The notes under the pieces were generated by a model that worked only from the letters and a program-made list of their open reading frames with translations, was not told where the DNA came from and did not search any database. Made by a program: the position numbers and the translations under genes. A stretch of 64,000 nt of DNA from Hyphomicrobiales bacterium (GTDB lineage: Bacteria > Pseudomonadota > Alphaproteobacteria > Rhizobiales > Xanthobacteraceae): positions 124,001 through 188,000 of the forward strand of contig JACPOA010000064.1 in NCBI GenBank assembly GCA_016185205.1, read 5' to 3'. Positions 6,661 to 64,000 of this stretch are shown here, in pieces. Each line of letters opens with the position of its first letter. The first letter of the stretch is position 1.

Positions 6661-7119
6661 TTATTGTGGTGTGACTGGCGCCGTGGTTTCGCGCCGCAGC
6701 GCCTTGAAGAACTGCCCGATCAGGTGCTTGGCGACGCCTTTCAGGATGCGCTGACCGACGCCGGCGACCAGGCCGCCGATTTCACCCTCGCCACTATAGC
6801 GCATCATCGTGCCGGCAGCCTGCGGCTCGAGCGAAAAGGTCGCGCTGCCACTGCCCTGGCCGAGCGTACCGGATCCCGATACGGCAACCTTGCATTGTGC
6901 CGGCGGCAGCTTGTCCGCCAGCGAAATCGCGCCCTCGAAGCTGCCGCCGACCGAGGCGACCTTCAGGTTGAGGATCAATTTAAAGCGGTCGCCGCCTTCG
7001 TCGATCATCTCCTTGCAGCCGGGAATGCACTTCACCAGCACGGCGGGATCGTTGAGCGCACGCCACAGCGCATCGATGCCGACTTCGAAGCTTTCCTCGC
7101 CGCCGATATCGAGCTTCAT
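6661..7119 (-). CDS. CoxG-like SRPBCC family protein
   Basis: Protein of 152 residues of the CO dehydrogenase subunit G (CoxG) family, with a START/SRPBCC fold (opening GEESFEVGIDALWRALNDP, then CIPGCKEM). CoxG proteins accompany CoxLMS-type molybdenum hydroxylases and are thought to help membrane attachment or maturation. Here it follows the hydroxylase and amidohydrolase genes with a 7-base gap, consistent with one transcript. The C-terminal half (LVAGVGQRILKGVAKHL) is typical of the family. Confidence 0.87.
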   Translation of the reverse strand: MKLDIGGEESFEVGIDALWRALNDPAVLVKCIPGCKEMIDEGGDRFKLILNLKVASVGGSFEGAISLADKLPPAQCKVAVSGSGTLGQGSGSATFSLEPQAAGTMMRYSGEGEIGGLVAGVGQRILKGVAKHLIGQFFKALRRETTAPVTPQ

Positions 7120-7126
7120 GGCGTGC

Positions 7127-8104
7127 TCATGCGATCTTGAACAGCTTTTGCGCCAGCCCGCCGTTGATCGAGGCGACTTGCGCGGCGCTGAGCCCGGCCT
7201 CGGCGACGATCTTCATCGGCTCGTGATCGCCGATCGGGAACGGCATGTCGGAGCCCATCATCAGGCGCTCGCTGCCCATCATCTCGATGACGAATTTGAG
7301 CACGCGCGCGTCGTGCAGGATGGTGTCGGTATAGATCGCAGCGAGCGCCGCCACCGGATCGCCGACGCCGGGCGTAATAGTGGCGTTGCGCTTGAGCCGG
7401 CCGAGCACGAAGGGCAGGGCGGCGGCGCCCATCGGCGCGAAGAATTTGGCGTTCTTGTATTTCGCCACGTGGCCGGCCGAGATCAGGCGGGCGACCGCGA
7501 TCACCGCGTCGGTGATGCGGCCGAGCCCGTTGGCCAGGCCGAAATCATTGACGCGCTTGTCGCCGGCATCGAAGCTCGGATGGATGTGGATGAGCGCGCC
7601 GGTCTCGTCCGTCGCTGCCCAGAACGGGTCGAGATCGGCGGCATCGAGCGTTGAGCCGACGCCGCGCGGCAGCGTGCCGATCATGGCGCCCGCAAATCCC
7701 GCCTTGATGGCGTCCTTCAGCACGGCGCCGGCGCGCGCGCCGTCGCCGAGCGGCACGGTCGCCAGCGGCACGAAATGCGGCTCGGCTTTCGCCGCTGCCA
7801 GCAGGCAATCGTTGATAAGCCGGCTCCAAGCTTCGCCCTCGGCGCCCGCCAGTTCGTAGCCGAACATGTCGACCCAGCCGCCGACCACCTGCTTGTCGAT
7901 GCCGTTCTTGGCCAGCCACGCCAGCCGCGCCGGAATATCCGACAGCGGCTTCGACACCGGCCGCGTCGGCTTGGACCCGGCGAAGGCGAAAGCCAGACTG
8001 CCGGCCTCCTCGATCTGCCGCACATTGGGAAAGCGCGCGGCGTCTTTACGAATGGCCGCCAGCAGTTCGGGCGGCACCAGATGGGCGTGGCAATCAACGA
8101 TCAT
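7127..8104 (-). CDS. amidohydrolase family protein, ACMSD-like decarboxylase/hydrolase
   Basis: Metal-dependent TIM-barrel hydrolase (amidohydrolase 2 family) of 325 residues. It starts MIVDCHAHLVPPE, the metal-binding H-x-H strand, and has further conserved segments IHIHPSFD and LMMGSDMPFPIGDHEP with the expected late aspartate. The nearest named relatives are aminocarboxymuconate-semialdehyde decarboxylases, which act on ring-cleavage products. The stop codon of the upstream molybdenum hydroxylase large subunit directly abuts this ATG (TAAATG), so the two are almost certainly cotranslated. The substrate is inferred to be a product of that pathway. Confidence 0.85.
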   Translation of the reverse strand: MIVDCHAHLVPPELLAAIRKDAARFPNVRQIEEAGSLAFAFAGSKPTRPVSKPLSDIPARLAWLAKNGIDKQVVGGWVDMFGYELAGAEGEAWSRLINDCLLAAAKAEPHFVPLATVPLGDGARAGAVLKDAIKAGFAGAMIGTLPRGVGSTLDAADLDPFWAATDETGALIHIHPSFDAGDKRVNDFGLANGLGRITDAVIAVARLISAGHVAKYKNAKFFAPMGAAALPFVLGRLKRNATITPGVGDPVAALAAIYTDTILHDARVLKFVIEMMGSERLMMGSDMPFPIGDHEPMKIVAEAGLSAAQVASINGGLAQKLFKIA

Positions 8105-10507
8105 TTACTTTTCCTTGTTGTCGCGCGCCGCGGCGATCATGTCGCCCAGCACGGAGACCTTGATCGGCAGCGTGTTGATGGAAATGCCGAGCGGGCGCAG
8201 CGCGTCGTTGATGGCATTGGCGATGCCGGCCGGCGCGCCGAGATAGCCGGATTCGCCGGAGCCCTTCTGTCCGAGCACGGTGTGCGGCGACGGCGTGCAG
8301 TGATGGATAATCTCGACCGCCGGCACCTCGTGCGAGGACGGCAGCAGATAATCCATGAAGCTCTGCGCCATCAGCTGGCCTTCGCCGTCATAGGCGAATT
8401 CCTCGTACAGCGCGGCGCCGATGCCGTGCGCGATGCCGCCCATGGTCATGCCGCGCACGATCTTCGGATTGATCACGGTGCCGCAGTCGTGCCCGACGCG
8501 GTATTTCACGATCTCCGGCCGGCCGAGTTCGGGATCGATGCTGAGCAGGATCAGGTGGAACTCGAACGAGGTGCAGGGATACATCTGCACGCGCCCGTCG
8601 GCGGTCGGCAACTTGCCGCCGGTCGGCACCTGCATGACGTGGCTGACCGAGAGCCCCGGCTCCATGTCGGCCGGCATGCGGTGGAAATTGCGGTAGGCGA
8701 TCTGCACCAGGTCGACCCAGGCGCGGCGCTTTTCGGGTGCGTTGCGGTCGTAGACTTCGCCATTGGCATAGGCCGCGCGCTCGGGCGCAATGCCGAGATC
8801 GTGCGCGCCGATCGCGGTGAGCTTGGCCTTGAGCTTGGTGGCGGCGTGGAAGGCGGCGCCCCCGAGCATGATCGCCATGCGGCTGCCGACCGGCGTGCCG
8901 CTCGGCAACGAGTTGAGCGAATCCGGCCGCGTCACGCGCGCCAGTTCGGGATCGAGCTGCAGCACCTCGCCGATCACGGTGCCGACCAGCGTCTCATGGC
9001 CCTGACCCGACGAGGTGGTGTGCATGGTGGCGGTGATCGAGCCCACGCCGTCCACCGTGATGCGGCAGGAATCCATGAAGGTGGTGGTGGTGATCTTGGG
9101 GTTAAGCAGCGCCTCGAACATAGCATTGCCGCCGGACGGCTCGAGACATGCGGCGATGCCGATGCCGGCGAGCTTGCCTTGCGCGCGCAAGGCGTCGCGC
9201 TCCTGCTTCAACTCCTCGTAGCTGGTGTGCGCCAGCACTTTGTCGATCACGGTGTGATAGTTGCCGCTGTCGTAAGTGGTGCCGCTCGGGATGGTGTAGG
9301 GAAACTCCTCGTGCCGGATCATGTTGCGCCGGCGTATCTCGATCGGATCGAGGCCGAGAACGCGCGCGACCTCGTCGACGGTGCGCTCGATCGCCACATT
9401 GGTCGGCGCCTGCCCGAAGCCGCGTACCGCCTCCTGCGTGGTCTTGTTGGTGACCACCGCAATGGCGCGATATTGCACGCTCTGGATTTTATACGGGCCG
9501 ACAATGGCGCCGATCGGCTTGCCGAGCTGGAACGGCGAGCGGCCGGCATAAGCGCCGACATTTTCCAGCGCGCGCATTTTCATCGACTTGATGATGCCCT
9601 GGTCGTCGAACGCCACCTCGACATCGAACAGCCGCTCGGGGCCGTGCGCATCGCCCCCGCGCATGTTCTCCAGCCGGTCCTCGATCAGCCGCACCGGAAA
9701 GCCGAGCCGGCGGGAGAGGTAGCCGACCAGCACAGTGTGCTTGATGCCGCGCTTGACGCCATAGCTGCCGCCGACATCGACATCGTAATGCACGCGTATC
9801 GACGACACCGGCAGTTTCAACGCAATGCCGATCTGGTCGGCATAGCGCGGCATCTGGATCGAGGCATGGACGTCGAGCATGTCGCGCCATGGGTCCCAGC
9901 TCGCGATTACGCCGAATGTCTCGATCGGCACCGTCGACGAGCGGCCCCATTTCACCCGCAGCGACAGCTTGCGCGGGCTGGCGGCGAAATCCTTGTCGAC
10001 CTCGCCCCAGGTGAAGGTCTTGTCGAGCAAAAGGTTGGAGCCGTGCGCCTGATGCACCAGCGGGCTGGTCGGCTCAAGCGCCTGCTCGGCGTCGAGCACA
10101 AAGGGCAGCTTCTCGTAGACGACCTTCACCTTCTCGGCGGCGTCCTCGGCCAGCGCGCGGCTGTCGGCGACCACGGCGGCGACCCATTCGCCGGCATAAC
10201 GCGCGACTTCGAAGGCGAGCGGCCGGCGCGGCACGTTCGGCGTGTCGAGCCCGGTCATCAGCGGCAAGGTTGCTGCGGCCAGCTCGGCGCCGTCCAGCAC
10301 GTAATGCACGCCGGGCAAAGCGAGCGCGGCGCTGACGTCGATGCTCTTGATGCGGGCGGCGGGATAAGGGCAGGTCACCAGCGCGACGTGCTTGGTGTTG
10401 GGCAAGCCGATATCGGCGACGAAATTGCCCTTGCCGACCACGAAGCGGCGGTCCTCGCGCACGCGGCGGTCGCTGGAAACGTAGCGGTGCTGGCCGGGCT
10501 CGCTCAT
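8105..10507 (-). CDS. xanthine dehydrogenase/CO dehydrogenase-type molybdopterin large subunit (CoxL-like)
   Basis: Molybdenum-cofactor subunit of a three-part hydroxylase that adds oxygen from water to an aromatic or heterocyclic ring. It is 800 residues when started at ATG 10507, the start that overlaps the small-subunit stop by 4 bases (ATGA). The frame stays open for another 121 codons upstream, but those only shadow the small subunit. Cofactor-binding motifs include AVRGFGQAPTNVA in the middle and GQKGSGESGYLGAPAG near the end, which carries the active-site glutamate. It lacks the CO dehydrogenase VAYRCSFR loop, so CO oxidation is unlikely. The substrate is unknown. Confidence 0.9.
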   Translation of the reverse strand: MSEPGQHRYVSSDRRVREDRRFVVGKGNFVADIGLPNTKHVALVTCPYPAARIKSIDVSAALALPGVHYVLDGAELAAATLPLMTGLDTPNVPRRPLAFEVARYAGEWVAAVVADSRALAEDAAEKVKVVYEKLPFVLDAEQALEPTSPLVHQAHGSNLLLDKTFTWGEVDKDFAASPRKLSLRVKWGRSSTVPIETFGVIASWDPWRDMLDVHASIQMPRYADQIGIALKLPVSSIRVHYDVDVGGSYGVKRGIKHTVLVGYLSRRLGFPVRLIEDRLENMRGGDAHGPERLFDVEVAFDDQGIIKSMKMRALENVGAYAGRSPFQLGKPIGAIVGPYKIQSVQYRAIAVVTNKTTQEAVRGFGQAPTNVAIERTVDEVARVLGLDPIEIRRRNMIRHEEFPYTIPSGTTYDSGNYHTVIDKVLAHTSYEELKQERDALRAQGKLAGIGIAACLEPSGGNAMFEALLNPKITTTTFMDSCRITVDGVGSITATMHTTSSGQGHETLVGTVIGEVLQLDPELARVTRPDSLNSLPSGTPVGSRMAIMLGGAAFHAATKLKAKLTAIGAHDLGIAPERAAYANGEVYDRNAPEKRRAWVDLVQIAYRNFHRMPADMEPGLSVSHVMQVPTGGKLPTADGRVQMYPCTSFEFHLILLSIDPELGRPEIVKYRVGHDCGTVINPKIVRGMTMGGIAHGIGAALYEEFAYDGEGQLMAQSFMDYLLPSSHEVPAVEIIHHCTPSPHTVLGQKGSGESGYLGAPAGIANAINDALRPLGISINTLPIKVSVLGDMIAAARDNKEK

Positions 10508-54907: not shown

Positions 54908-54916
54908 GTAAGTCCG

Positions 54917-55894
54917 CTAGCCGCGCTTTACCGATAGTGGCCCGCCTTGCGCCATCGAGCGGACGATCGCCTCGAAGGTGCCGACGACGTCGAGCATGTC
55001 GGCGGTGGAGACCGGAAACGGCTTGCCGGTCTCGATGGTCTCGCCAAAGGCTTCCAGCAGCACGCCAAGCGAATCGACCGCCGGAAACACGTGCGTATTC
55101 GGCTGCTCGCCGATCTTGGCGACCGTGAGGGTCGTCTCGTCGCGCGCTTCCGCCCAGCCCTTGGTGCCGAACACCATGATGCGCCAATACATCGGCGCGG
55201 CGCGCACGGTCGCCAGCACGCCGGTGGCGCCGCCGGCAAATTCCACCAGCGCGGCGGCGGCATCGCGGGGATCGGGCGGCGCCTTTTGCGCGAACAGGCG
55301 CGCGTCCACCTTGGCGATCGGACCGGCGAGATTGACGAAGGCATCGATCAAATGCAGGCCGGCGCCGGTCATGCCGCCACCGGGCGACTCATTCGGGTCG
55401 TCGCGCCAGCCGCCCTTCACACGCGTCGAGTGCTCGTTGGTGAAGTTGCCTTCGATGTGCAGCACCTCGCCGATGCTGCCGTCGGCTACCACACGCTTGA
55501 GCTCGCGCATGGACGAAAAACAGCGTTTGTTGTTGCCGAGCGCGAACGGCACGCCGGCCTTGGCGCAGACCGCGACGGCGCGTTCGGCTTCGCTGCGCGT
55601 CAGCGCCAGCGGCTTCTCGCACCACACCGGCTTGCCGGCCGCCGCCACCGCGGATATCTGCCGTACATGCAGCGAATGCGGCGTGGCCAGGAACACCGCC
55701 TGCACGCCTGGATCGGCCACCGCCTGTTCGAATTCCGTGGACAGCTCGAAGCCCTTGGCCGCGGCGAAGTCGCGGACCAGCTCGGGCTCCTTGCTGACCC
55801 CGCGGATGAAACGCAGGCGCTGGCTCTTGCCCTGCACGGATTCGACGATGTTCTTGCCCCAGCGCCCGAGGCCGATAACGGCGGCGTTGATCAT
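54917..55894 (-). CDS. Gfo/Idh/MocA family oxidoreductase
   Basis: NAD(P)-dependent sugar or polyol dehydrogenase-like protein of 325 residues. It shows INAAVIGLGRWGKNIVESVQG at the nucleotide site, PHSLHVRQISAVAAAGKPVWCEKPLALT with the catalytic lysine in EKP, and GGGMTGAGLHLIDAFVNLAG. ATG 55894 gives this N-terminus; ATG 55939 would add 15 residues. It is convergent with the dehydrogenase before it and divergent from the CMD gene after it. Confidence 0.88.
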   Translation of the reverse strand: MINAAVIGLGRWGKNIVESVQGKSQRLRFIRGVSKEPELVRDFAAAKGFELSTEFEQAVADPGVQAVFLATPHSLHVRQISAVAAAGKPVWCEKPLALTRSEAERAVAVCAKAGVPFALGNNKRCFSSMRELKRVVADGSIGEVLHIEGNFTNEHSTRVKGGWRDDPNESPGGGMTGAGLHLIDAFVNLAGPIAKVDARLFAQKAPPDPRDAAAALVEFAGGATGVLATVRAAPMYWRIMVFGTKGWAEARDETTLTVAKIGEQPNTHVFPAVDSLGVLLEAFGETIETGKPFPVSTADMLDVVGTFEAIVRSMAQGGPLSVKRG

Positions 55895-55971
55895 GGGCGA
55901 AGGCGGCAGGCGGCTAGGAAAAAATATGTCATAGTTCATTCTAACGCATGATCGGGGAAAGGATACCGACG

Positions 55972-56355
55972 ATGGATGACAAAGAGCAGCATGAGCGCGG
56001 GCTGAAGCTGCGCGTCGAGATGTTCGGCCGTGAGGCGGTGGACAAGCGCATGGCCGCTTTCGGCGAGTTCGGCAAGCCACTGCAGCACATCATCAATGCC
56101 TATGCCTATGGCGACGTTTGGCAGCGCTCTGCTTTGCCGCCGGGGATGAAGTCGCTGGTCATGGTCGGGATGATGGCGGCGGCCGGCCATCCCAACGAGC
56201 TGCGCGTGCATCTCAACGGCGCCTTGAAGAACGGCTGCACGCCCGAGCAGATCCAGGAAGTGCTGCTGCTGCTGACGCTGTATTGCGGCATTCCGGCCGC
56301 CAACCAGGCGCACGCCATCGCGATCGAGGTGCTGCGCGAGCATGGGAAGGCGTGA
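55972..56355 (+). CDS. carboxymuconolactone decarboxylase family protein (PcaC-like)
   Basis: Protein of 127 residues of the CMD/PcaC family. It has HERGLKLRVEMFG at the start, GMKSLVMVGMMAAAGHPNELRVHLNGALKNGCTPEQIQEVLL in family order, and LYCGIPAANQAHAIA. It lacks the CxxC of the AhpD peroxidase branch, so decarboxylase or a related lactone role fits better. ATG 55972 is chosen, with AAAGGA upstream; a frame to 55948 is open. It is the last ordinary metabolic gene before the lanthipeptide locus. Confidence 0.85.
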   Translation: MDDKEQHERGLKLRVEMFGREAVDKRMAAFGEFGKPLQHIINAYAYGDVWQRSALPPGMKSLVMVGMMAAAGHPNELRVHLNGALKNGCTPEQIQEVLLLLTLYCGIPAANQAHAIAIEVLREHGKA

Positions 56356-56399
56356 GATGGGCGCAACACGCGCCATTCCATGCTGTCACCCTCTTGCGT

Positions 56400-56429
56400 T
56401 TGCACAACCCTACGGCTACAACTAATAAT
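56400..56429 (+). promoter_or_regulatory. sigma-70-like promoter of the lanthipeptide precursor gene
   Basis: TTGCAC (56400-56405) and TAATAA (56423-56428) are 17 bases apart, giving four of six and five of six matches to the sigma-70 consensus. Transcription would start about 20 bases before the ATG at 56456, with a GAGGGG ribosome site in between. No element of an ECF type is obvious. Confidence 0.5.
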
Positions 56430-56455
56430 CGTACAAATGTAGTGAGGGGTTAGCC

Positions 56456-56905
56456 ATGGCAAAGGTAACTCGGAAGGGAAAAGCTCGCGCCGGCGCATCG
56501 CGGAAGACGAAGGCCCGCGCGGGCGGCAAACTGAAAGCTCCTGCAGATTTGCGCACGATGATCACAGTCGCCGCTTGGGCGGATCCAAAATTTGCCGAGC
56601 TGGTACAGAGAGATCCAGCAGCCGCCGTCGCCGAACTTGCCAAAGAGTATGACATCAAGCCGCCGCGCGGGATGAAGTTTAAGACAGTCCAAGCAGATCC
56701 GAATGAATATCTGTTCTTCCTGCCGCCTAACCCGGCCGGCGAATTGAAAACCTCTCGGCTGGAGGCTGGACCCGGCGGTATTCGGACGGTCACTGCGGAT
56801 TGCTGGTGCGGCGACACGACCACCGGTAGATGCAGTTGTGGCTCGATTGCCGGCACGCCCTGTCTCGGCTGCCGCACAAGCACCTCGCGCTGCTTCTGCA
56901 ATTAG
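56456..56905 (+). CDS. class II lanthipeptide precursor with nitrile-hydratase-type (NHLP) leader
   Basis: Precursor of 149 residues. Residues 1-29 are basic and repetitive (KARAG twice). Residues 30-95 form a nitrile-hydratase-alpha-like leader (AAWADPKFAELVQRDPAAAV, then RGMKFKTVQADPNEYLFFLP). A double glycine at 107-108 (EAGPGG) is the likely cleavage point, leaving a core of 41 residues. The core has eight cysteines (116, 118, 126, 128, 136, 139, 146, 148) as four close pairs (CWC, CSC, CLGC, CFC), and 12 Ser/Thr that could be dehydrated. The LanM gene follows 36 bases later. Ribosome site GAGGGG lies 8 bases upstream. The number and topology of rings is not predictable. Confidence 0.9.
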   Translation: MAKVTRKGKARAGASRKTKARAGGKLKAPADLRTMITVAAWADPKFAELVQRDPAAAVAELAKEYDIKPPRGMKFKTVQADPNEYLFFLPPNPAGELKTSRLEAGPGGIRTVTADCWCGDTTTGRCSCGSIAGTPCLGCRTSTSRCFCN

Positions 56906-56941
56906 GTTTCTTTAGATTTCTAGCAAGCTGCGACATAGTGC

Positions 56942-59900
56942 ATGACCTCATTGGTGGGGCGACGCGTGCGAGGTTCCGGCGCCGCGCCGCTCCGTATTGT
57001 TGAGCGACTGACCCAATGCGGGCTCCCCAAACGCGCCACCGCGAAGCAATTCGCGGCGGCCGATGAATTGCGGGAGTGGTGGATAAGGACATACCTGAGA
57101 GGAAACCGGCGCTTGTCCGCGCGCGTTCTCAAGCGCCTCGGTACCAGCGGTCGCCGGTTTCTGCGGGCTCTGATGACGGATTGTGTGCTCCCGCCCGCAC
57201 ACATGCCAACGTGGATGCGGGTATCGCGCCAGGCCCTTAAACAGCTGGCGCCGAATGAACCCGGCGAAGCAACGGACTTCACGCCGCTCGTGCGCCCTTT
57301 TGCGGTATGGGCCTCGGCCAAGTTCGCGCAGGACCTGCGATCGCATCCTGATCCGAACCTGGATGTCGACGCGTTATGCGAACAATTTCATGCAGTGGTC
57401 GAGGAGCATCTTCTTTTTGTTGCCTCGCGCACTTGCCTGCTCGAATTAAATGACGCGCGCCTGCTAGGCCAGCTAGGGGCCGCCAGTCCCGGGGAGCGGT
57501 TTCAGCAATTCGTTCGAGATTTCCTGAGTTCTCCCCGCTCCATTCGTTTGTTTCTGGATCGCTACCCTGTGCTCGAGCGACTGCTGGCAACCGCGTCCAA
57601 CCAAGCGCTGGCAGCATGGAGCGAGATGACCCGGCGGCTGAGGGCCGACTGGAACTTAGTGCATAAGACGTTTGCCCTCGACGACGAAAACTTGCGCCGC
57701 GTTGACAGCGGCCTCGGCGACCCACATCGAGAGGGACGTTCGGTCATGATTCTGACCTTCGCGTCGGGACGCAAGGTCGTCTACAAGCCCAGGTCGGTCG
57801 CAATCGAGAGCCATTTTTCGAATTGCATTGCCTGGTTTAACGCACGCGGGCTTGTAGCGCCGCTGCGGCGGCTGGTCGTGCTCCCGCGCGAGGACTACGG
57901 CTGGGTGGAGTATATCGAACCCAAGCCGTGCGAGACCAGCGACGACATTCAAGCATTCTATCGTCGCCAAGGCGCATTGCTTGCGTTGACGTATTTTCTC
58001 GATGGCACGGATTGTCACAACGAGAACCTCATCGCGCACGGTGCAGACCCGGTGCTGGTAGACGTCGAGACGCTATTTCACAATCTTCCACCCGCGACGC
58101 GGGTCGGCCGCGATCGGGCGGCAGTCAGACGTACGACAGTTTACGCAGAGACGGTGCTGAGAACCGGGCTGCTCCCGCAGAAGATATTCGGGCCGGAAGG
58201 ATCCGCGGAATTGAGCGGCTTGAAAGGCGCCGGCGGTCAAACCAGCCCATTTTCCGTCCCACGATTCGAGCAACGGCTAACCGATGAGATGCACATCGTG
58301 TATGGCAAGGTGCAAATGGGGCCAGCGCACAATCTCCCCCGGTTGGGTGAACTGCCGGTCGATGTCGGTGAGGTCGACGATATTTTTATCGGCGGGTTCT
58401 CCGAGATGTACCGCCTTGCCATGCAACATCGCAGCCAATTTCTGGCACCGGACGGTCCGGTCGAAGCATTCCGTCAGGATCGCGTTCGCTTTGTGCCAAG
58501 ACCAACTTACGAATATGCAGCGCTACTCTCCGACAGCCTTCATCCCGCGCTGATGCGAGACGCGGTGCGGCGCGACTTTCACCTCGACATCTTGTGGCAG
58601 ACGGTACCGGAACAGAAATTCCTGGAGGATCTCGTTGAATCCGAACAGCAGGACCTGTGGCAAGGGGACATCCCGTATTTCGAGGCGGGGGTGGGTGAAA
58701 CCGATCTGTTCGATAGCCGGAAAAAGCGGATCGAAGGCTTCTTTCAGCAGCCGGCAATTGCACGGGTGCGGTGCCGCATTGCGGCGCTGAGCGAACGGGA
58801 CTTGGACTGCCAGACGCATTGCATTCGCATGAGTATCGCGGCTGCACGGGCCACCGGCGGTGGCGCGGTTCCCACGGCGCAGCTTGCCGCTGGCGCGGCG
58901 ACGACGCCGAGCGAACTGCTGGCGGCGGCGACGGACATTGGCGAGTGGCTTTTGCGCTATGCCCTGGCGCCGTCCGGCGACCAGCATTGGATCAGCCTCC
59001 AGCCCGTGAACGAGACCGATTACATTGTTGAAGTGGCGGCCGACGATTTTTATTCGGGCAATGCCGGCATCGCGGTCTTCTTAGCTCACTTGGCTAAGCA
59101 GACTGGCAGAGGGGAATTTCAGAGCGTAGCGCGAGCGGTATTGCGTCGTGCAATATCGAATGTCTGCCGCCCGCACAAAGTCGACTCAATCGGCGCGTTT
59201 CACGGACCGCTGTCGGTCCTCTATGCAGCGCTGCATGGGTCGGCCATTTGGGGGGAGAACAGCGTTATCGAGCCGTTCGAAGCCTTGCAGCCAGCAATTG
59301 CGAGACATTTGCGCCGGGATCGGAAATTCGATCTGCTTGGGGGGGCGGCAGGCTGCATATTGGTGCTGTTGCGCTGGTTTCGACGAAATCAAAGTGAAGA
59401 GTTGCTGGGACTGGCGGTGCAGGCCGGCGACCATCTTCTCAAGAGCAGTGTGAAGTTGTCGGCCGGCATCGGTTGGCCGTCGCCGGCCGACGGTCCGCCT
59501 CTGACCGGAGTGTCGCACGGTGTCGCCGGGATAGCCTGGGCACTTGCAGAGCTCGGCGTGATGACGAAGCGCGATAAGTATCTGGACGCGGCCGCTGCGG
59601 CGCTCGTCTATGAGCGGAGCTTGTTCGATTCCGGCACCCAGAATTGGGCCGATCTTCGTCCGGCTTCCGAAGGCGGTTCGCCGTCGGCAAAGTTTCTATG
59701 GGCCTGGTGCCATGGCGCACCGGGGATCGGCACGGCTCGATTGATGATGCGCCGCGTCTGGCCGGAAGCGGACGTGGATGACGAGATTGCCACGGCCATT
59801 CGCAGCACGTTGTCCAACGGGTTTGGCGGAAGTCATTCGCTTTGTCACGGCGACCTGGGCAATGCGGATTTTCTGGTTTCCGCAGCCCATGATCTTCATC

Positions 59901-60112
59901 AGCCGGAATGGGCGCGCGAGGCGCTGCGAGCCGCCAGTCGAGTGCTCGAGCAGCGGAACATTGAAGGACGCTTTCGCTGCGGAGTTGGAGGGTTCGAGGA
60001 GACCCCGGACTTCATGGTTGGGTTGGCCGGCATCGGATATGGACTGTTGCGCCTGGCAAATCCGCGCGCCGTTCCGAGTGTCCTGGGATTGGAAATTCCA
60101 AGCCCGAACTAG
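56942..60112 (+). CDS. lanM: class II lanthipeptide synthetase LanM
   Basis: Bifunctional enzyme of 1056 residues. The N-terminal DUF4135 dehydratase phosphorylates and eliminates Ser/Thr of the precursor. Its kinase-like residues are K282 (VVYKPRS), D357-x-H359-xx-N362 (GTDCHNENL) and D374-V-E376 (LVDVETLF), with the 17-residue spacing of D357 to D374 seen in CylM. The C-terminal LanC-like cyclase has H859 (VSHGVAG), C923 (AWCHGAPGIG) and C968-H969 (LCHGDLGN), the complete zinc set. Every catalytic feature I can check is present, so the enzyme is probably active on the precursor just upstream. No LanT-type exporter or protease gene is in the window. Confidence 0.95.
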   Translation: MTSLVGRRVRGSGAAPLRIVERLTQCGLPKRATAKQFAAADELREWWIRTYLRGNRRLSARVLKRLGTSGRRFLRALMTDCVLPPAHMPTWMRVSRQALKQLAPNEPGEATDFTPLVRPFAVWASAKFAQDLRSHPDPNLDVDALCEQFHAVVEEHLLFVASRTCLLELNDARLLGQLGAASPGERFQQFVRDFLSSPRSIRLFLDRYPVLERLLATASNQALAAWSEMTRRLRADWNLVHKTFALDDENLRRVDSGLGDPHREGRSVMILTFASGRKVVYKPRSVAIESHFSNCIAWFNARGLVAPLRRLVVLPREDYGWVEYIEPKPCETSDDIQAFYRRQGALLALTYFLDGTDCHNENLIAHGADPVLVDVETLFHNLPPATRVGRDRAAVRRTTVYAETVLRTGLLPQKIFGPEGSAELSGLKGAGGQTSPFSVPRFEQRLTDEMHIVYGKVQMGPAHNLPRLGELPVDVGEVDDIFIGGFSEMYRLAMQHRSQFLAPDGPVEAFRQDRVRFVPRPTYEYAALLSDSLHPALMRDAVRRDFHLDILWQTVPEQKFLEDLVESEQQDLWQGDIPYFEAGVGETDLFDSRKKRIEGFFQQPAIARVRCRIAALSERDLDCQTHCIRMSIAAARATGGGAVPTAQLAAGAATTPSELLAAATDIGEWLLRYALAPSGDQHWISLQPVNETDYIVEVAADDFYSGNAGIAVFLAHLAKQTGRGEFQSVARAVLRRAISNVCRPHKVDSIGAFHGPLSVLYAALHGSAIWGENSVIEPFEALQPAIARHLRRDRKFDLLGGAAGCILVLLRWFRRNQSEELLGLAVQAGDHLLKSSVKLSAGIGWPSPADGPPLTGVSHGVAGIAWALAELGVMTKRDKYLDAAAAALVYERSLFDSGTQNWADLRPASEGGSPSAKFLWAWCHGAPGIGTARLMMRRVWPEADVDDEIATAIRSTLSNGFGGSHSLCHGDLGNADFLVSAAHDLHQPEWAREALRAASRVLEQRNIEGRFRCGVGGFEETPDFMVGLAGIGYGLLRLANPRAVPSVLGLEIPSPN

Positions 60113-60143
60113 ACCACCGCGAGGTCAAGCGCGATGGATGCGC

Positions 60144-60209
60144 CCTCTCACGGCGGCGGCTCGGTCAGCAAATGGGGCGCCGGACGGCTGCGGTTGTCGT
60201 AGACGCGGG
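60144..60209 (-). repeat. 66-base copy of the 3' end of the right-edge membrane protein gene (left boundary repeat)
   Basis: This segment matches 63507-63572 at 61 of 66 bases in the same orientation. Read on the minus strand it encodes RVYDNRSRPAPHLLTEPPP and a stop, against RVYDIRGRPVPHLLTEPPP in the intact gene. Only the gene end is present. It marks the left edge of the AT-rich hydrolase/sigma/anti-sigma cassette. Confidence 0.85.
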
Positions 60210-60326
60210 ATGGTGGCGGACAATTTTCGGTGCCAAGAATGCAGGTGCGTCTGGCAAGCTTTGGCTTTTCCTCAGCAAGGCCCCTATTTTGAACACTCAA
60301 TCTTTAGACTTCAACCTCGAACGTAG

Positions 60327-61403
60327 TCATTGTTGGCTTCCTTTTCGCGCTAGTTCATCGATTGAAAATATCTTCGAGGCCTTGTCGGTATTTGATGGTA
60401 CGAACGCAAATACAGTGTCGCCTCGCTCAATTTGTTGCGATTGGTAAATAGGCGCGTTGACTTCGATCATTTGATTGGCAGCGCGAACAGCGATTTTACC
60501 GTCGGAGCGCTGTGCAATGTATCCTAAATAAGCTGTCCCTAGGCTCGTGCGCTTTCCGTGGTCCCAATACATATTTACGTAATTCTGACCAGGCACGGCT
60601 ACTAGTGTTCCGGCCAAACTCTTTGAGTCGGGGCTATATCGGACCACACTGGTTCGATTCGATCCGTCATTTATTTGCGAGGCCACGATCCTGAGTACGC
60701 GATCTTCAGCGGATTGAAGCCCTCGATAGTTCGAGGTTACGTGCCAAGTAAAGAACGCGCCATATCCGACTGTAAATGTTGCGAACAGGCCGCCAATTAC
60801 TGCGCCCCCAATCTTCTGGAACGATCTTTGCGCACCAAACCACTTGGCTGCGGTCATTCCGCTCAGAAAAACTATCAATGCAACTGCTATTGCTGCAGAT
60901 ACGGTTGTGAGCGATGTCCACTTCAAAGAAGAAATTGAGATCGATAAAATTACATCAGGAGTCACGGCAATGATCGCCGCTGCAATAATGCAAAGTATAA
61001 GGATCGGCGCTGTGACCGCGACTATATCCCACAGCGGGTCTCTAAAAGCAGCCGTCCTATCGCGCGCGTTCAGTATAGGTCTTGCGGCAGCAACCTCCCG
61101 CATGAATGCATCAATTGGAAGTTCTGAAGAATTTGCGACTTCAAGCATCGCCGCACACATCGGACAGCTTTGAGCATGTGATATGCGTTCCAGGAGCAAA
61201 TTTCCCAGGCAGAACTGCTCTACCTCCCACGGGTCAAGGCAATCGACGGATGGATACGTGGACAGGTGAATCGCCTTGCGGTCATCCGCCAATAGCTCAT
61301 CAACACTCTTGCCAAGCCGAGCGGCACGGCGCTTGACTGTACTTTCGAGTTCGGAAATGCGAACTGCCTCCCCGAAAGGAGCCGTGATAGTTTCCCGGGC
61401 CAT
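60327..61403 (-). CDS. zinc-finger anti-sigma-like membrane protein
   Basis: Protein of 358 residues. A cytoplasmic N-terminal part carries an anti-sigma-type zinc motif, H76-xxx-C80-xx-C83 (HAQSCPMC), after a helix LDPWEVEQFCLGNLLLE. Three membrane helices follow, about residues 124-146 (APILILCIIAAAIIAV), 164-187 and 200-222. The final 130 residues (from about NYRGLQSAEDRVLRIVAS) would lie outside and may sense a signal. It comes directly after the sigma factor in the transcript, as cognate anti-sigmas usually do. The domain name is inferred from the zinc motif and position. Confidence 0.78.
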   Translation of the reverse strand: MARETITAPFGEAVRISELESTVKRRAARLGKSVDELLADDRKAIHLSTYPSVDCLDPWEVEQFCLGNLLLERISHAQSCPMCAAMLEVANSSELPIDAFMREVAAARPILNARDRTAAFRDPLWDIVAVTAPILILCIIAAAIIAVTPDVILSISISSLKWTSLTTVSAAIAVALIVFLSGMTAAKWFGAQRSFQKIGGAVIGGLFATFTVGYGAFFTWHVTSNYRGLQSAEDRVLRIVASQINDGSNRTSVVRYSPDSKSLAGTLVAVPGQNYVNMYWDHGKRTSLGTAYLGYIAQRSDGKIAVRAANQMIEVNAPIYQSQQIERGDTVFAFVPSNTDKASKIFSIDELARKGSQQ

Positions 61404-61501
61404 AGGTTGTCTCGATTCATTGTCGCGGGTTCATCGGTAAAACTCTGTCTATATATAAAACTGCCGCAGGCATCGATTTCTTACAACGCAGCTGAACTTT
61501 T

Positions 61502-62065
61502 TTAATTATTGTTATTATTCAATAGCTTATGAACCTTTTTTTTGAGCCTATGAAAGCGTACTCCTACATTTGTGTAAGTTAATCCAAGCTCAGATGCTAC
61601 CTCTCTAAGGCTTCGGCCTTGCAATATGAGATGCAGCAGTTTGGTATCCTGTGGTTCAAGGCCTTCTCGCGCAAGTCGTAAGGCCTCTTCCATCAAAATT
61701 CGGTCGTCGGTTTCTGGTGGCTCATAGAATGTGCTTCCCCATTCAATTAGCTTGTGCTCGCCATGTTCCTTTCTGCGAGCATTCTTCAAGTGGGTGTTCG
61801 CGACATTTACTGCAATTCTCCATACGTATGCACGAAACTCGCTTTCTACTTGAATCTTTTCAAATGGACGAGAATTCAGGACTCGAACGAAAACCTCCTG
61901 CGCTGCATCTTCAGCGGCGCTCCTGTTCTTTAAGCGTCGATAGATTACGGCGATGACGAAGGGCCACAATTGACGATATAGCGACCGCCATGCGTCCTCA
62001 TCGTTTGGGGAGGTCGCAAGTCTATCAAGGACAGCCGTGAGTGTATTAACGGCGGTCATGCTCAT
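61502..62065 (-). CDS. ECF-type RNA polymerase sigma factor
   Basis: Sigma factor of 187 residues with region 2 (YRQLWPFVIAVIYRRLKNRSAAEDAAQEVFVRVL) and region 4 (LHLILQGRSLREVASELGLTYTNVGVRFHRLKKKVHKLL) and no region 3, which marks the ECF class. The region 2.4 part is EFRAYVWRIAVNVANTHLKNARRKE. The C-terminus ends in five asparagines encoded by an AAT/AAC run, unusual for this genome. Its start overlaps the hydrolase stop by 4 bases. It probably drives its own operon, and perhaps distant genes; a target promoter was not identified. Confidence 0.9.
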   Translation of the reverse strand: MSMTAVNTLTAVLDRLATSPNDEDAWRSLYRQLWPFVIAVIYRRLKNRSAAEDAAQEVFVRVLNSRPFEKIQVESEFRAYVWRIAVNVANTHLKNARRKEHGEHKLIEWGSTFYEPPETDDRILMEEALRLAREGLEPQDTKLLHLILQGRSLREVASELGLTYTNVGVRFHRLKKKVHKLLNNNNN

Positions 62066-63237
62066 TTTATTTCGTATTCTGACACGATGGTGTCCACAGC
62101 TCTGGCGATGGCGATATTTGGGTGCAAGGCGCGAGCGATATTCTCATCGAATGGTGCTTCACGGACTGACTCGAAGATGGCAGTCGCTGTGAGCACATGC
62201 AGCAGCGACTTCACTTCATTAACGATCTGTCCAATGGGCGGGTTTGACGATAACTTCGGCCCCCATTTGACACGTGCGGCCACAAGTTCACTCACAAATT
62301 CTTTCAGTGAGTTTCCGCCAGACCAGGCAAAGTGAGTTGCCCATAGTCTTTCGATAATCGTTTCTACCTCGTTCCAACGTTTTTCTTCTTGAAGGCGTGC
62401 AGCCTCTTTGCTGTCCTCTAAATATGTGTTGAATTCGTCAGGCGAGAAGCCCCAAAGAAACGGAAGCCAAAGCTCCCTAGCATGTCTGCGGCCCAAAAAC
62501 TCATCACTATGTTCCAATTCCAGCAACGGAACATTATGAATTTGTGCTGGTCTCGCAGCGCATAATGGGCATCGCGTTGTCGGACTGAGTGAAGTATGAA
62601 TCGACGTGCTATTCTCATAGAATCCGTAAGCGCCCGCGTTGCCAAGATCGCGGGCAAGCCATCGGATTTTTCCGACCGTCTTGACAACTAAATCTGACGT
62701 TCCGAATTCGCTGCGAACGTTGCGAACGCAAGCAGGCCGTTGCGTTAGAATCCACTGCCAGGGATAGTCGCGGGGCAACACCGTACTCACCAGCACAACA
62801 TTGCCGAGACGAATATCCGGAAATGTTTTTAGAACGCGGCCGATTAAGTACGTTCCGAGACTGTGCGCGATGACATGAGGTGATCCCGAGGGAGACGTAT
62901 TTTCTATCGCCACCTTTAGCCGTTTCGCGCATAGCAGTCTCCTGCGCCAGCCTAAAATGAGGCTTAGAACGAACAACATGACGAATGCAGCGAATCCAAT
63001 TGCTGCCATCATCCAGTTTTGCGTGATCAATTGAATGATGGAAAATAGGAACGCAATAATCGAAAGTGTAAGCGTCAAGATATTTGCAATGGCGCGCAAC
63101 GGTCCCACACTAGAATCGTAGTCGGGGTAGCTATGGCCCACGCAATCGAAATGGGGCGCTAAGACTTGTTGAACCCTTGATTGCCACTCGCGATCTGGAT
63201 TTACTCCGTGGATAGTTATGACAACTGGTTTGGCCAT
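62062..63237 (-). CDS. membrane-anchored alpha/beta hydrolase-like protein
   Basis: Protein of 391 residues with the alpha/beta hydrolase plan split by a membrane hairpin. The first strand and oxyanion region read VVITIHGVNP (5-14). Two membrane helices (about 48-71 and 77-97) follow, and then the nucleophile elbow HVIAHSLGTYL with S126. A later CPLC pair (RCPLCAARP) may bind metal or form a disulfide. The C-terminal 150 residues are helical and unassigned. It is the first gene of the operon and is coupled to the sigma factor gene by an ATGA overlap. The acid and histidine of a triad are not certain. Confidence 0.75.
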   Translation of the reverse strand: MAKPVVITIHGVNPDREWQSRVQQVLAPHFDCVGHSYPDYDSSVGPLRAIANILTLTLSIIAFLFSIIQLITQNWMMAAIGFAAFVMLFVLSLILGWRRRLLCAKRLKVAIENTSPSGSPHVIAHSLGTYLIGRVLKTFPDIRLGNVVLVSTVLPRDYPWQWILTQRPACVRNVRSEFGTSDLVVKTVGKIRWLARDLGNAGAYGFYENSTSIHTSLSPTTRCPLCAARPAQIHNVPLLELEHSDEFLGRRHARELWLPFLWGFSPDEFNTYLEDSKEAARLQEEKRWNEVETIIERLWATHFAWSGGNSLKEFVSELVAARVKWGPKLSSNPPIGQIVNEVKSLLHVLTATAIFESVREAPFDENIARALHPNIAIARAVDTIVSEYEIK

Positions 63238-63506
63238 CTCAAGCTCCGAAACGGATCAACGCGCCTTAAGGTCGCCAACGTGGCCAGTTATCCTTTCGCG
63301 CATGGTTCGAATTATACACGCCTAGGTTTGATCGCATAGTTTGATGCTATTTTGCTCGAAAAAGCCGACCGCTGGGCGGGCAACATATAGGGAATTGTCT
63401 ACGTCCGTTTCTGGCGCTTTTGCGACCCGTCGAAACGAAAAAGCGTTACCCGCTTTTATTCCTGAAGCGGACCCGACGCAGGCATCAATCGTTATCACCA
63501 TGTATG

Positions 63507-63572
63507 CCCCTCACGGCGGCGGCTCGGTCAGCAAATGGGGCACCGGCCGGCCGCGGATGTCGTAGACGCGGG
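63507..63572 (-). repeat. right boundary repeat, the intact 3' end of the membrane protein gene
   Basis: Matches the segment at 60144-60209 at 61 of 66 bases as a direct repeat. It is the functional end of the gene at the right edge, with its stop codon at 63511-63513. The island lies between the two copies. Confidence 0.85.
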
Positions 63573-64000
63573 CATAGACCACGCCTTCGCGGACGATCTC
63601 GACCAGCGTCGGCGCGTCCAGATCGCGGCAGTAAAACGTGCCGAGCGTCATTGCGAAGTCCGCCGGTTTGCGCTCCCAGGTGGTTTCGAATTGCGGACCG
63701 AGCGCCACTTCGGCGCCGCGTTGCGGACCGCAGGTTTCCACGATCCAGCGGCGGCCGGCCGGCGGCGTTTCATGGCGGGCGTCGAGGGTGGCGCGCAGCT
63801 CGTTAGCCGCCTGTTTAAAGGCCAGGCCCCAGTAATCGAGCATGTAGTTTTTGTGCGCCGTGCGCACACCGCCGGAGGCCCAGTTGAAGGCGGTGTACTG
63901 ATAAGGATGCAGGCGCACCATATCGATCGCCGGCAGCGTGACGCCGCCGATAAAGAGCGCGGCCAGGGCGGCGAGCGCGGGTTGCCCAAAAGCGCGAAGC
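63511..64000 (-). CDS. glycosyltransferase 39-like membrane protein, C-terminal part (runs off the window)
   Basis: Only the last 163 residues or so are inside the window, and the frame stays open to the edge. The visible part begins in a membrane helix (LAALAALFIGGVTLPAID), followed by MVRLHPYQYTAFNWASGGVRTAHKNYMLDYWGLAFKQA in family order and a soluble end PVPHLLTEPPP. The HPYQY...NYMLDYWG pattern is the C-terminal signature of a family of polytopic mannosyltransferase-like proteins common in this order. The full protein would be several hundred residues. Confidence 0.75.
   Translation of the reverse strand, partial: LRAFGQPALAALAALFIGGVTLPAIDMVRLHPYQYTAFNWASGGVRTAHKNYMLDYWGLAFKQAANELRATLDARHETPPAGRRWIVETCGPQRGAEVALGPQFETTWERKPADFAMTLGTFYCRDLDAPTLVEIVREGVVYARVYDIRGRPVPHLLTEPPP

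Follow-up and report, generated by a model that had tools for sequence, protein, structure and literature searches.

A putative horizontally acquired class II lanthipeptide cassette in a member of the family Xanthobacteraceae

Introduction

The stretch of DNA analysed in this study, hereafter the window, comprises 64,000 nucleotides of a Hyphomicrobiales bacterium of the family Xanthobacteraceae (assembly GCA_016185205.1, contig JACPOA010000064.1, positions 124,001 to 188,000), and all positions given below count along it. On its forward strand, an open reading frame (ORF) for a putative precursor peptide is followed by a gene for a LanM-type lanthipeptide synthetase. The locus raises the question of whether such a pair is a working lanthipeptide system, where it came from and how its product would leave the cell. 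Leader-guided dehydration of Ser and Thr residues and closure of thioether rings are established activities of LanM enzymes.

We consider the pair to be probably a functional class II lanthipeptide cassette of two genes that was acquired horizontally, with leader removal and export, if they take place at all, relying on unlinked host functions. The assignment to class II follows from the domains and protein families matched, the complete set of residues and a precursor located 36 bases upstream with a leader match ending at Gly-Gly. Horizontal acquisition is favoured because the site is empty in a relative, the third-position G + C content of the pair is low and the LanM belongs to a different branch, as supported by an approximately unbiased (AU) test.

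The LanM synthetase

The LanM gene (56942..60112, forward strand) encodes a protein of 1056 residues, which matches TIGR03897 across the full profile with 913.1 bits (cut-off 304). Among proteins of solved structure, LicM2 is its best relative with 400.3 bits, followed by CylM with 187.1 bits. The dehydratase domain (DUF4135, residues 208-582, positions 57563..58687) matches PF13575 with an E-value of 6.5e-122. Its residues K282, D357, H359, N362, D374 and E376 coincide with those of LicM2 and CylM in alignments to PDB entries; the counterparts in CylM, K274, D347, H349, N352, D364 and E366, were counted along the PDB alignment. The cyclase domain (LANC_like, residues 700-1048, positions 59039..60085) matches PF05147 with an E-value of 2.3e-66 and has C923, C968 and H969 at the positions of the LicM2 zinc set.

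A DUF4135 dehydratase fused to a LanC-like cyclase, the full catalytic and zinc-binding residues and a linked precursor characterise the locus as class II. The LanM ORF begins 36 bases beyond the end of the precursor on the same strand, and the protein is the one LanC-like protein found in its own genome. A preliminary description of the locus, made from the sequence, had proposed a class II lanthipeptide locus with a complete LanM, had named the nine residues above, and had described a 149-residue precursor with a Gly-Gly motif and a Cys/Ser/Thr-rich core 36 bases ahead of a 1056-residue LanM. The open reading frames bear out this arrangement, all nine residues are present and the three family matches support the class.

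The precursor peptide

The precursor ORF (56456-56905, forward strand) is open and encodes 149 residues. The Shine-Dalgarno-like sequence GAGGGG (56444..56449, forward strand), a candidate ribosome-binding site read directly from the sequence, ends 6 bases ahead of the ATG. The leader (residues 1-108, positions 56456..56779) starts with 32 residues rich in Lys and Arg (11 Lys/Arg, 1 Asp/Glu), followed by a part resembling a nitrile-hydratase-like leader peptide (NHLP). Residues 31-108 align to positions 4-77 of the 77-position NCBIfam profile leader_NHLP (TIGR03793), and the match stops at Gly-Gly (residues 107-108). A Pfam search of the precursor gave no match, and its best matches in the PDB are the NHLP leader entries 8tb1 (a leader chimera, E 0.0033) and 9cjx (E 0.0087), with nitrile hydratase alpha subunits among the lower-ranked ones.

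The core (residues 109-149; 56780..56905 including the stop codon) contains 8 Cys and 12 Ser/Thr. All Cys residues (116, 118, 126, 128, 136, 139, 146 and 148) lie within the last 34 residues (116-149), and the leader is free of Cys. Each core Cys is preceded by at least one Ser or Thr, so that eight rings are possible on paper, an arrangement that is not beyond chance. That a leader match, this placement of the Cys residues and a neighbouring LanM gene occur together is, judged from the sequence, well beyond what chance would be expected to yield.

We infer that the LanM modifies this core. In the proposed pathway, it would bind the nitrile-hydratase-like leader, phosphorylate Ser and Thr residues of the core and eliminate the phosphate to give dehydroamino acids, with at most 12 dehydrations. 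The Cys-Cys-His zinc site would then add core Cys residues onto the dehydroamino acids, which may give up to 8 thioether rings. Each ring is predicted to run from a Cys to a Ser or Thr on its N-terminal side. This direction is expected because the enzyme is of the Cys-Cys-His type with one linked precursor, and because most class II enzymes, with two Cys ligands and one His, show C-to-N directionality according to a preprint (PMC13060382).

Several observations weigh against a functional cassette. The match to leader_NHLP reaches 24.6 bits (E 1.7e-5), below the curated cut-off of 50.9, and two longer open frames on contig C7 of the genome, with 220 and 225 residues, score higher with this profile (E 1.2e-8 and 1.5e-8); judged by their length alone, these are probably nitrile-hydratase-type subunits. 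An antisense ORF overlapping the precursor (56422-56901) is likewise open, which counts against the reality of the precursor call. Promoter-like sites show no excess (2 found, shuffle mean 1.4), a point against the locus as a whole. The LanM start lacks a clear ribosome-binding site, with an in-frame stop just upstream. An apparent tandem repeat of the core with a period of 10 residues (Cys 116, 126, 136 and 146) looked striking and was dropped; the period was reached by 12,355 and 16,073 of 200,000 core shuffles by two measures and is not significant. Searches of the family, order, class and phylum genome sets yielded no ortholog that would permit testing the pair for purifying selection. Finally, an exporter could sit in a gap of the assembly (96% complete, 112 contigs).

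The nitrile-hydratase-type leader of the preliminary description thus stands in part: the match extends up to Gly-Gly with a low E-value, but its score remains under the cut-off, and the NHLP label is weakly backed by the profile. The low score would also fit a precursor ORF that is not the substrate, with the real LanM precursor encoded elsewhere. Annotations of plasmid-borne LanMs of the same branch point in this direction too, as these usually stand beside short precursors of the mersacidin/lichenicidin, plantaricin or A2 type. However, the ORF directly adjoins the LanM on the same strand, and its leader match stops at Gly-Gly, after which the Cys/Ser/Thr-rich end begins, which makes a substrate encoded elsewhere highly improbable.

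Phylogenetic inference

LanM matches were found at E 1e-40 in 15 of 296 genomes of the family, the own genome included, and the remaining 14 proteins are at most 32% identical. In the order set 7/397 genomes gave matches at 1e-60, in the class set 7/385 at 1e-50 and in the phylum set 1/398 at 1e-100, the latter being the own genome. The precursor was found in the own genome alone (1 of 385 class genomes, 1e-6). Plasmid records with a LanM match numbered 159, with those of Trichormus (37.2% identity over 87% of the query) and Dolichospermum (36.2%) being the best. For the precursor, one weak plasmid match was obtained, in Paenibacillus (34.2% identity over 51%); the 9.5 kb of that locus covered here showed no LanM. 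The scan of genome contigs yielded one relative, a Rhodothermales LanM with 31% identity, in which no zinc ligands occupy the aligned positions. Pattern scans of viral contigs with both proteins, which detect close relatives only, retrieved no relative and hence showed no immediate viral association. Plasmid matches of a neighbouring gene were uninformative as to taxonomy, with 33-35% identity at best among the 8 matches listed.

In the other 14 family LanMs, the zinc site consists without exception of three Cys, as in ProcM, whereas the LanM of the window has Cys-Cys-His. The LanM tree was calculated from 34 of 45 rows; the 11 omitted rows were partial, had very long branches or nearly duplicated rows that were retained. 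Branch support is expressed as values of the Shimodaira-Hasegawa-like approximate likelihood ratio test (SH-aLRT) from a quick search, in which all branches to the window LanM are long. The window LanM falls in a group of 11 rows, all Cys-Cys-His, with a support of 100; besides the window LanM, it contains sequences from Bacillota, Cyanobacteriota and Streptomyces together with two further alphaproteobacterial rows. Three Cys ligands are the rule in the remaining 23 rows, from which only Pseudanabaena and Nostoc UHCC 0926 depart, with degenerate sites. The end branch of the window LanM is long (1.42), and the tree supports its membership in the group, but no exact position inside it. A tree in which the window LanM was held among the 14 family LanMs was 310.8 log-likelihood units worse (p-AU 9.8e-65). 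An origin of the LanM by vertical inheritance within the family is rejected by the tree and the AU test. Membership in the ProcM clade is likewise rejected, on the zinc ligands C923, C968 and H969 and the placement in the tree.

Several loci retrieved alongside deserve mention in their own right. Besides the rows from Pseudanabaena and Nostoc UHCC 0926 (L093, L094), the Rhodothermales LanM (L020) and those of genome G548 (L040, L117) have zinc sites that are degenerate in the alignment; judging from these residues, such enzymes might dehydrate their substrates without catalysing cyclisation. In five genomes, the precursors next to a three-Cys LanM (L111, 10644-10931; L112, 7175-7525; L114, 10275-10661; L033, 7141-7584; L034, 10894-11196) end in near-identical cores GSPxCxxTxGCYCxFTK and form a conserved alphaproteobacterial lanthipeptide family; the L111 precursor matches Nif11 weakly, below the cut-off. 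Upstream of Cys-Cys-His LanMs in the genomes G407, G334 and G373, precursors of 127-145 residues (L037, 717-1106; L038, 4536-4919, reverse strand; L039, 690-1127) have a start that resembles a Sec signal by eye and a Cys-rich core at the end; a C39 peptidase was matched in one of the three genomes. An open-ended ORF divergent to a Cys-Cys-His LanM in G935 (L108, 11667-12260) starts with a signal-like segment, contains nearly identical repeats of some 30 residues in tandem and is possibly a multi-core precursor. Directly 3' of three-Cys LanMs in two genera (genomes G228 and G185), NHLP-like proteins of 77 and 78 residues (L021, 10962-11195; L022, 13890-14126) lack a Cys-rich core and Gly-Gly and are possibly leader-only helper proteins. 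A divergent ATP-binding cassette (ABC) exporter-like gene lies alongside these, and an acyltransferase-3 gene is nearby, the acyltransferase having been scanned in L021 only. A plasmid of Paenibacillus cellulosilyticus (L055, 5569-5799 and 5974-6234) encodes two short NHLP-leader proteins above the curated cut-off, with no LanM match in the 9.5 kb fetched.

Genomic context

The pair lies in a stretch of 7.2 kb (56341..63509) that is absent at the same site in the same-genus genome G245. There, positions 7104-8556 of the fetched stretch (L062) align to 54915-56340 of the window and positions 8571-8997 to 63510-63936, with 78% identity and 14 bases between the two blocks, and a carboxymuconolactone-decarboxylase-like gene adjoins a PMT_2-type gene (63511-65205 in window positions). 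Among nine same-genus stretches fetched, L062 alone covers both flanks, and the window LanM was found in none of the nine. The arrangement would be explained most simply by an insertion of the 7.2 kb. The codons of the pair have third-position G + C contents of 0.64 and 0.68, compared to 0.80-0.85 in three flanking genes. The preliminary description had overlooked both that the pair is inside a stretch absent from the same site of a relative and that its LanM is of another branch than the family LanMs.

Leader cleavage and export

Substrates of C39 peptidases carry Leu at -12 and -7 and usually a hydrophobic residue at -4. The leader shares both Leu residues (-12 and -7, counted from Gly-Gly), but its positions -8, -4 and -3 are occupied by Arg, Gly and Pro, respectively. 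Cleavage by LahT150 is blocked by Lys or Asp at -4, not by Thr, and changes at -8 are tolerated (PMC6363468). The changes described for LahT include neither Gly at -4 nor Pro at -3, so that the leader may or may not be cleavable by a C39 peptidase.

The own genome assembly (4.38 Mb in 112 contigs, 96.22% complete) gave no match to Peptidase_C39 (PF03412) at E 0.1, a search that yielded matches in 8 of 14 control genomes. This negative covers C39 only, no search for LanP of the subtilisin type or for M16 leader proteases having been made. For the NHLM ABC2 exporter subunit (TIGR03797), none of the 88 generic ABC matches was over the cut-off, the best reaching 266.1 versus 709.4, and all 14 control genomes likewise gave matches below it. 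A C39 match was present in 11/20 LanM-bearing alphaproteobacterial genomes, the own one being among the 20, and around the LanM in 2/14 family loci. In the branch of the window LanM it adjoins the LanM in seven of nine fetched named-plasmid loci, the one in L056 being cut by the end of the record. About one-third of more than 20,000 lanthipeptide clusters contain no protease, according to a review (PMC10885120), and a missing protease is thus not rare.

The cassette may have come without a peptidase-C39 exporter or have lost it afterwards. Leader removal and export, if occurring, would then be carried out by unlinked host proteases and ABC exporters. The preliminary description had inferred an active, probably undescribed product; activity is likewise an inference here, as the usual exporter and peptidase were not found and no ortholog was found for a selection test.

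The lack of a C39 match and of an NHLM subunit over the cut-off would also agree with a modified product that stays inside the cell and needs no exporter, with the leader kept as a functional part and the Lys/Arg-rich tail (11 of the first 32 residues) targeting nucleic acid or membrane. Gly at -4 and Pro at -3 fit this as well. Conversely, the leader retains the Leu residues (-7 and -12) and the Gly-Gly typical of a C39 substrate, Gly is not among the changes at -4 described for LahT, where Lys or Asp block and Thr does not (PMC6363468), and export could take another route, so that we consider an intracellular product unlikely. Its specific form, a lanthionine-stapled intracellular protein made by a LicM-like Cys-Cys-His LanM on a kept NHLP-like leader with a basic tail, in a genome without C39 exporter, appears quite unlikely.

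Alternatively, the pair could be part of an ordinary proteusin-type lanthipeptide cluster with its exporter inside an assembly gap. Incompleteness and fragmentation of the assembly leave room for this, and distant exporters are perhaps common, given how rarely C39 was matched near the LanM in the family loci compared to anywhere in LanM-bearing genomes. However, the 240-kb contig, near whose centre the LanM lies, shows no C39 match around the gene, and completeness alone gives odds of a few per cent at best. We therefore rate an exporter hidden in a gap as very unlikely.

Comparison with known systems

NHLP precursors beside LanM were described by Haft et al. 2010 for the alphaproteobacterium Azospirillum sp. 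B510 and for Nostoc (PMC2887384), and several class II precursor families carry NHLP leaders (PMC7268733). Phaeornamide from Pseudophaeobacter arcticus, also an alphaproteobacterium, is a characterised product of an NHLP precursor and a type II lanthionine synthetase (PMC9505594). The preliminary description had emphasised how few lanthipeptides are known from Hyphomicrobiales; this argument is weaker than claimed because NHLP precursors with LanM had already been reported in alphaproteobacteria (PMC2887384, PMC9505594). Literature word searches turned up no description of the window pair itself among the entries listed. Its kind is already known, and the pair is an added member in which the pairing of enzyme and leader differs and no exporter was found.

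The phaeornamide cluster resembles the window pair in its NHLP-family precursor and LanM-type enzyme; it adds genes for an arginase, a hydroxylase, an N-acyltransferase and the transporters phaT1-T3 (PMC9505594), none of which is present in the island. Azospirillum sp. B510 also combines NHLP precursors with LanM, but has eight precursors with hypervariable cores (PMC2887384), compared to one here; its NHLP leaders are cleaved in vitro by the C39 domain LahT150 (PMC6363468). The ProcM clade and the nostolysamide synthetase NpuM are class II synthetases as well, and the clusters reported for them use long NHLP or Nif11 leaders (PMC13060382). According to the same preprint, ProcM-clade enzymes have three Cys ligands and cyclise in both directions, in contrast to the Cys-Cys-His site of the window LanM.

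By sequence, LicM2 and the LanMs of mersacidin/lichenicidin-type loci, with which the window LanM groups, are nearest to it and share its zinc site. The Trichormus and Dolichospermum plasmid loci encode short precursors of this type and an adjoining peptidase-domain ABC exporter; the window pair has neither, its precursor being NHLP-like with 149 residues and no adjacent LanT (C39) match. The combination of a Cys-Cys-His LanM with an NHLP leader is unusual, judged only among the loci examined here.

If functional, the pair would be a minimal two-gene lanthipeptide system in which a Cys-Cys-His LanM, of a branch otherwise seen here with short leaders, is unusually combined with a long NHLP-like leader. 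It could then tell whether the direction of the rings is set by the LanM branch or by the leader type, and also whether peptides of this sort exit the cell without a C39 exporter and, if so, by what means. If not functional, it is one more predicted product in a large, mostly untested set.

The adjoining low-GC module

Downstream of the LanM, a direct repeat of 66 bases brackets a second set of genes. Copy 1 (60144..60209) is 92% identical to copy 2 and duplicates the 3' end of the PMT_2-type gene at 63511, whose true 3' end is within copy 2 (63507..63572). The low-GC module between them (60327..63237, reverse strand) comprises genes for a membrane protein (60327-61403), an extracytoplasmic function (ECF) sigma factor (61502-62065) and an alpha/beta-hydrolase-like protein (62062-63237). 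The membrane protein is possibly an anti-sigma factor, a label derived from its position and membrane-like sequence, with no family above its cut-off. Third-position G + C contents of the module are 0.46-0.52. It is probably a separate insertion, and because the repeat duplicating the gene end brackets a separate low-GC module, the island is suggested to have arisen by two insertion events. The module was considered as a regulator of the cassette and dropped, given its different G + C content and its own bracketing repeat.

A second insertion next to the pair, with a duplicated gene end, is also what a stranded or decaying fragment might display, in which transfer cost the cassette its exporter and the two genes survive without a function for now. 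Neither a linked nor an unlinked C39 was found and no relative carrying the pair, which would agree with decay. Nevertheless, the LanM is not truncated and retains every catalytic and zinc residue tested, and the precursor frame is intact and has a good ribosome site; we regard decay as rather unlikely and a functional cassette as the preferred reading.

The 66-base repeat of the gene end is reminiscent of a duplicated attachment site or target; no integrase was seen in the sequence separating the copies. In a scan against a defence library, the sigma factor gave a single marginal match (E 0.0076), and four further proteins gave none.

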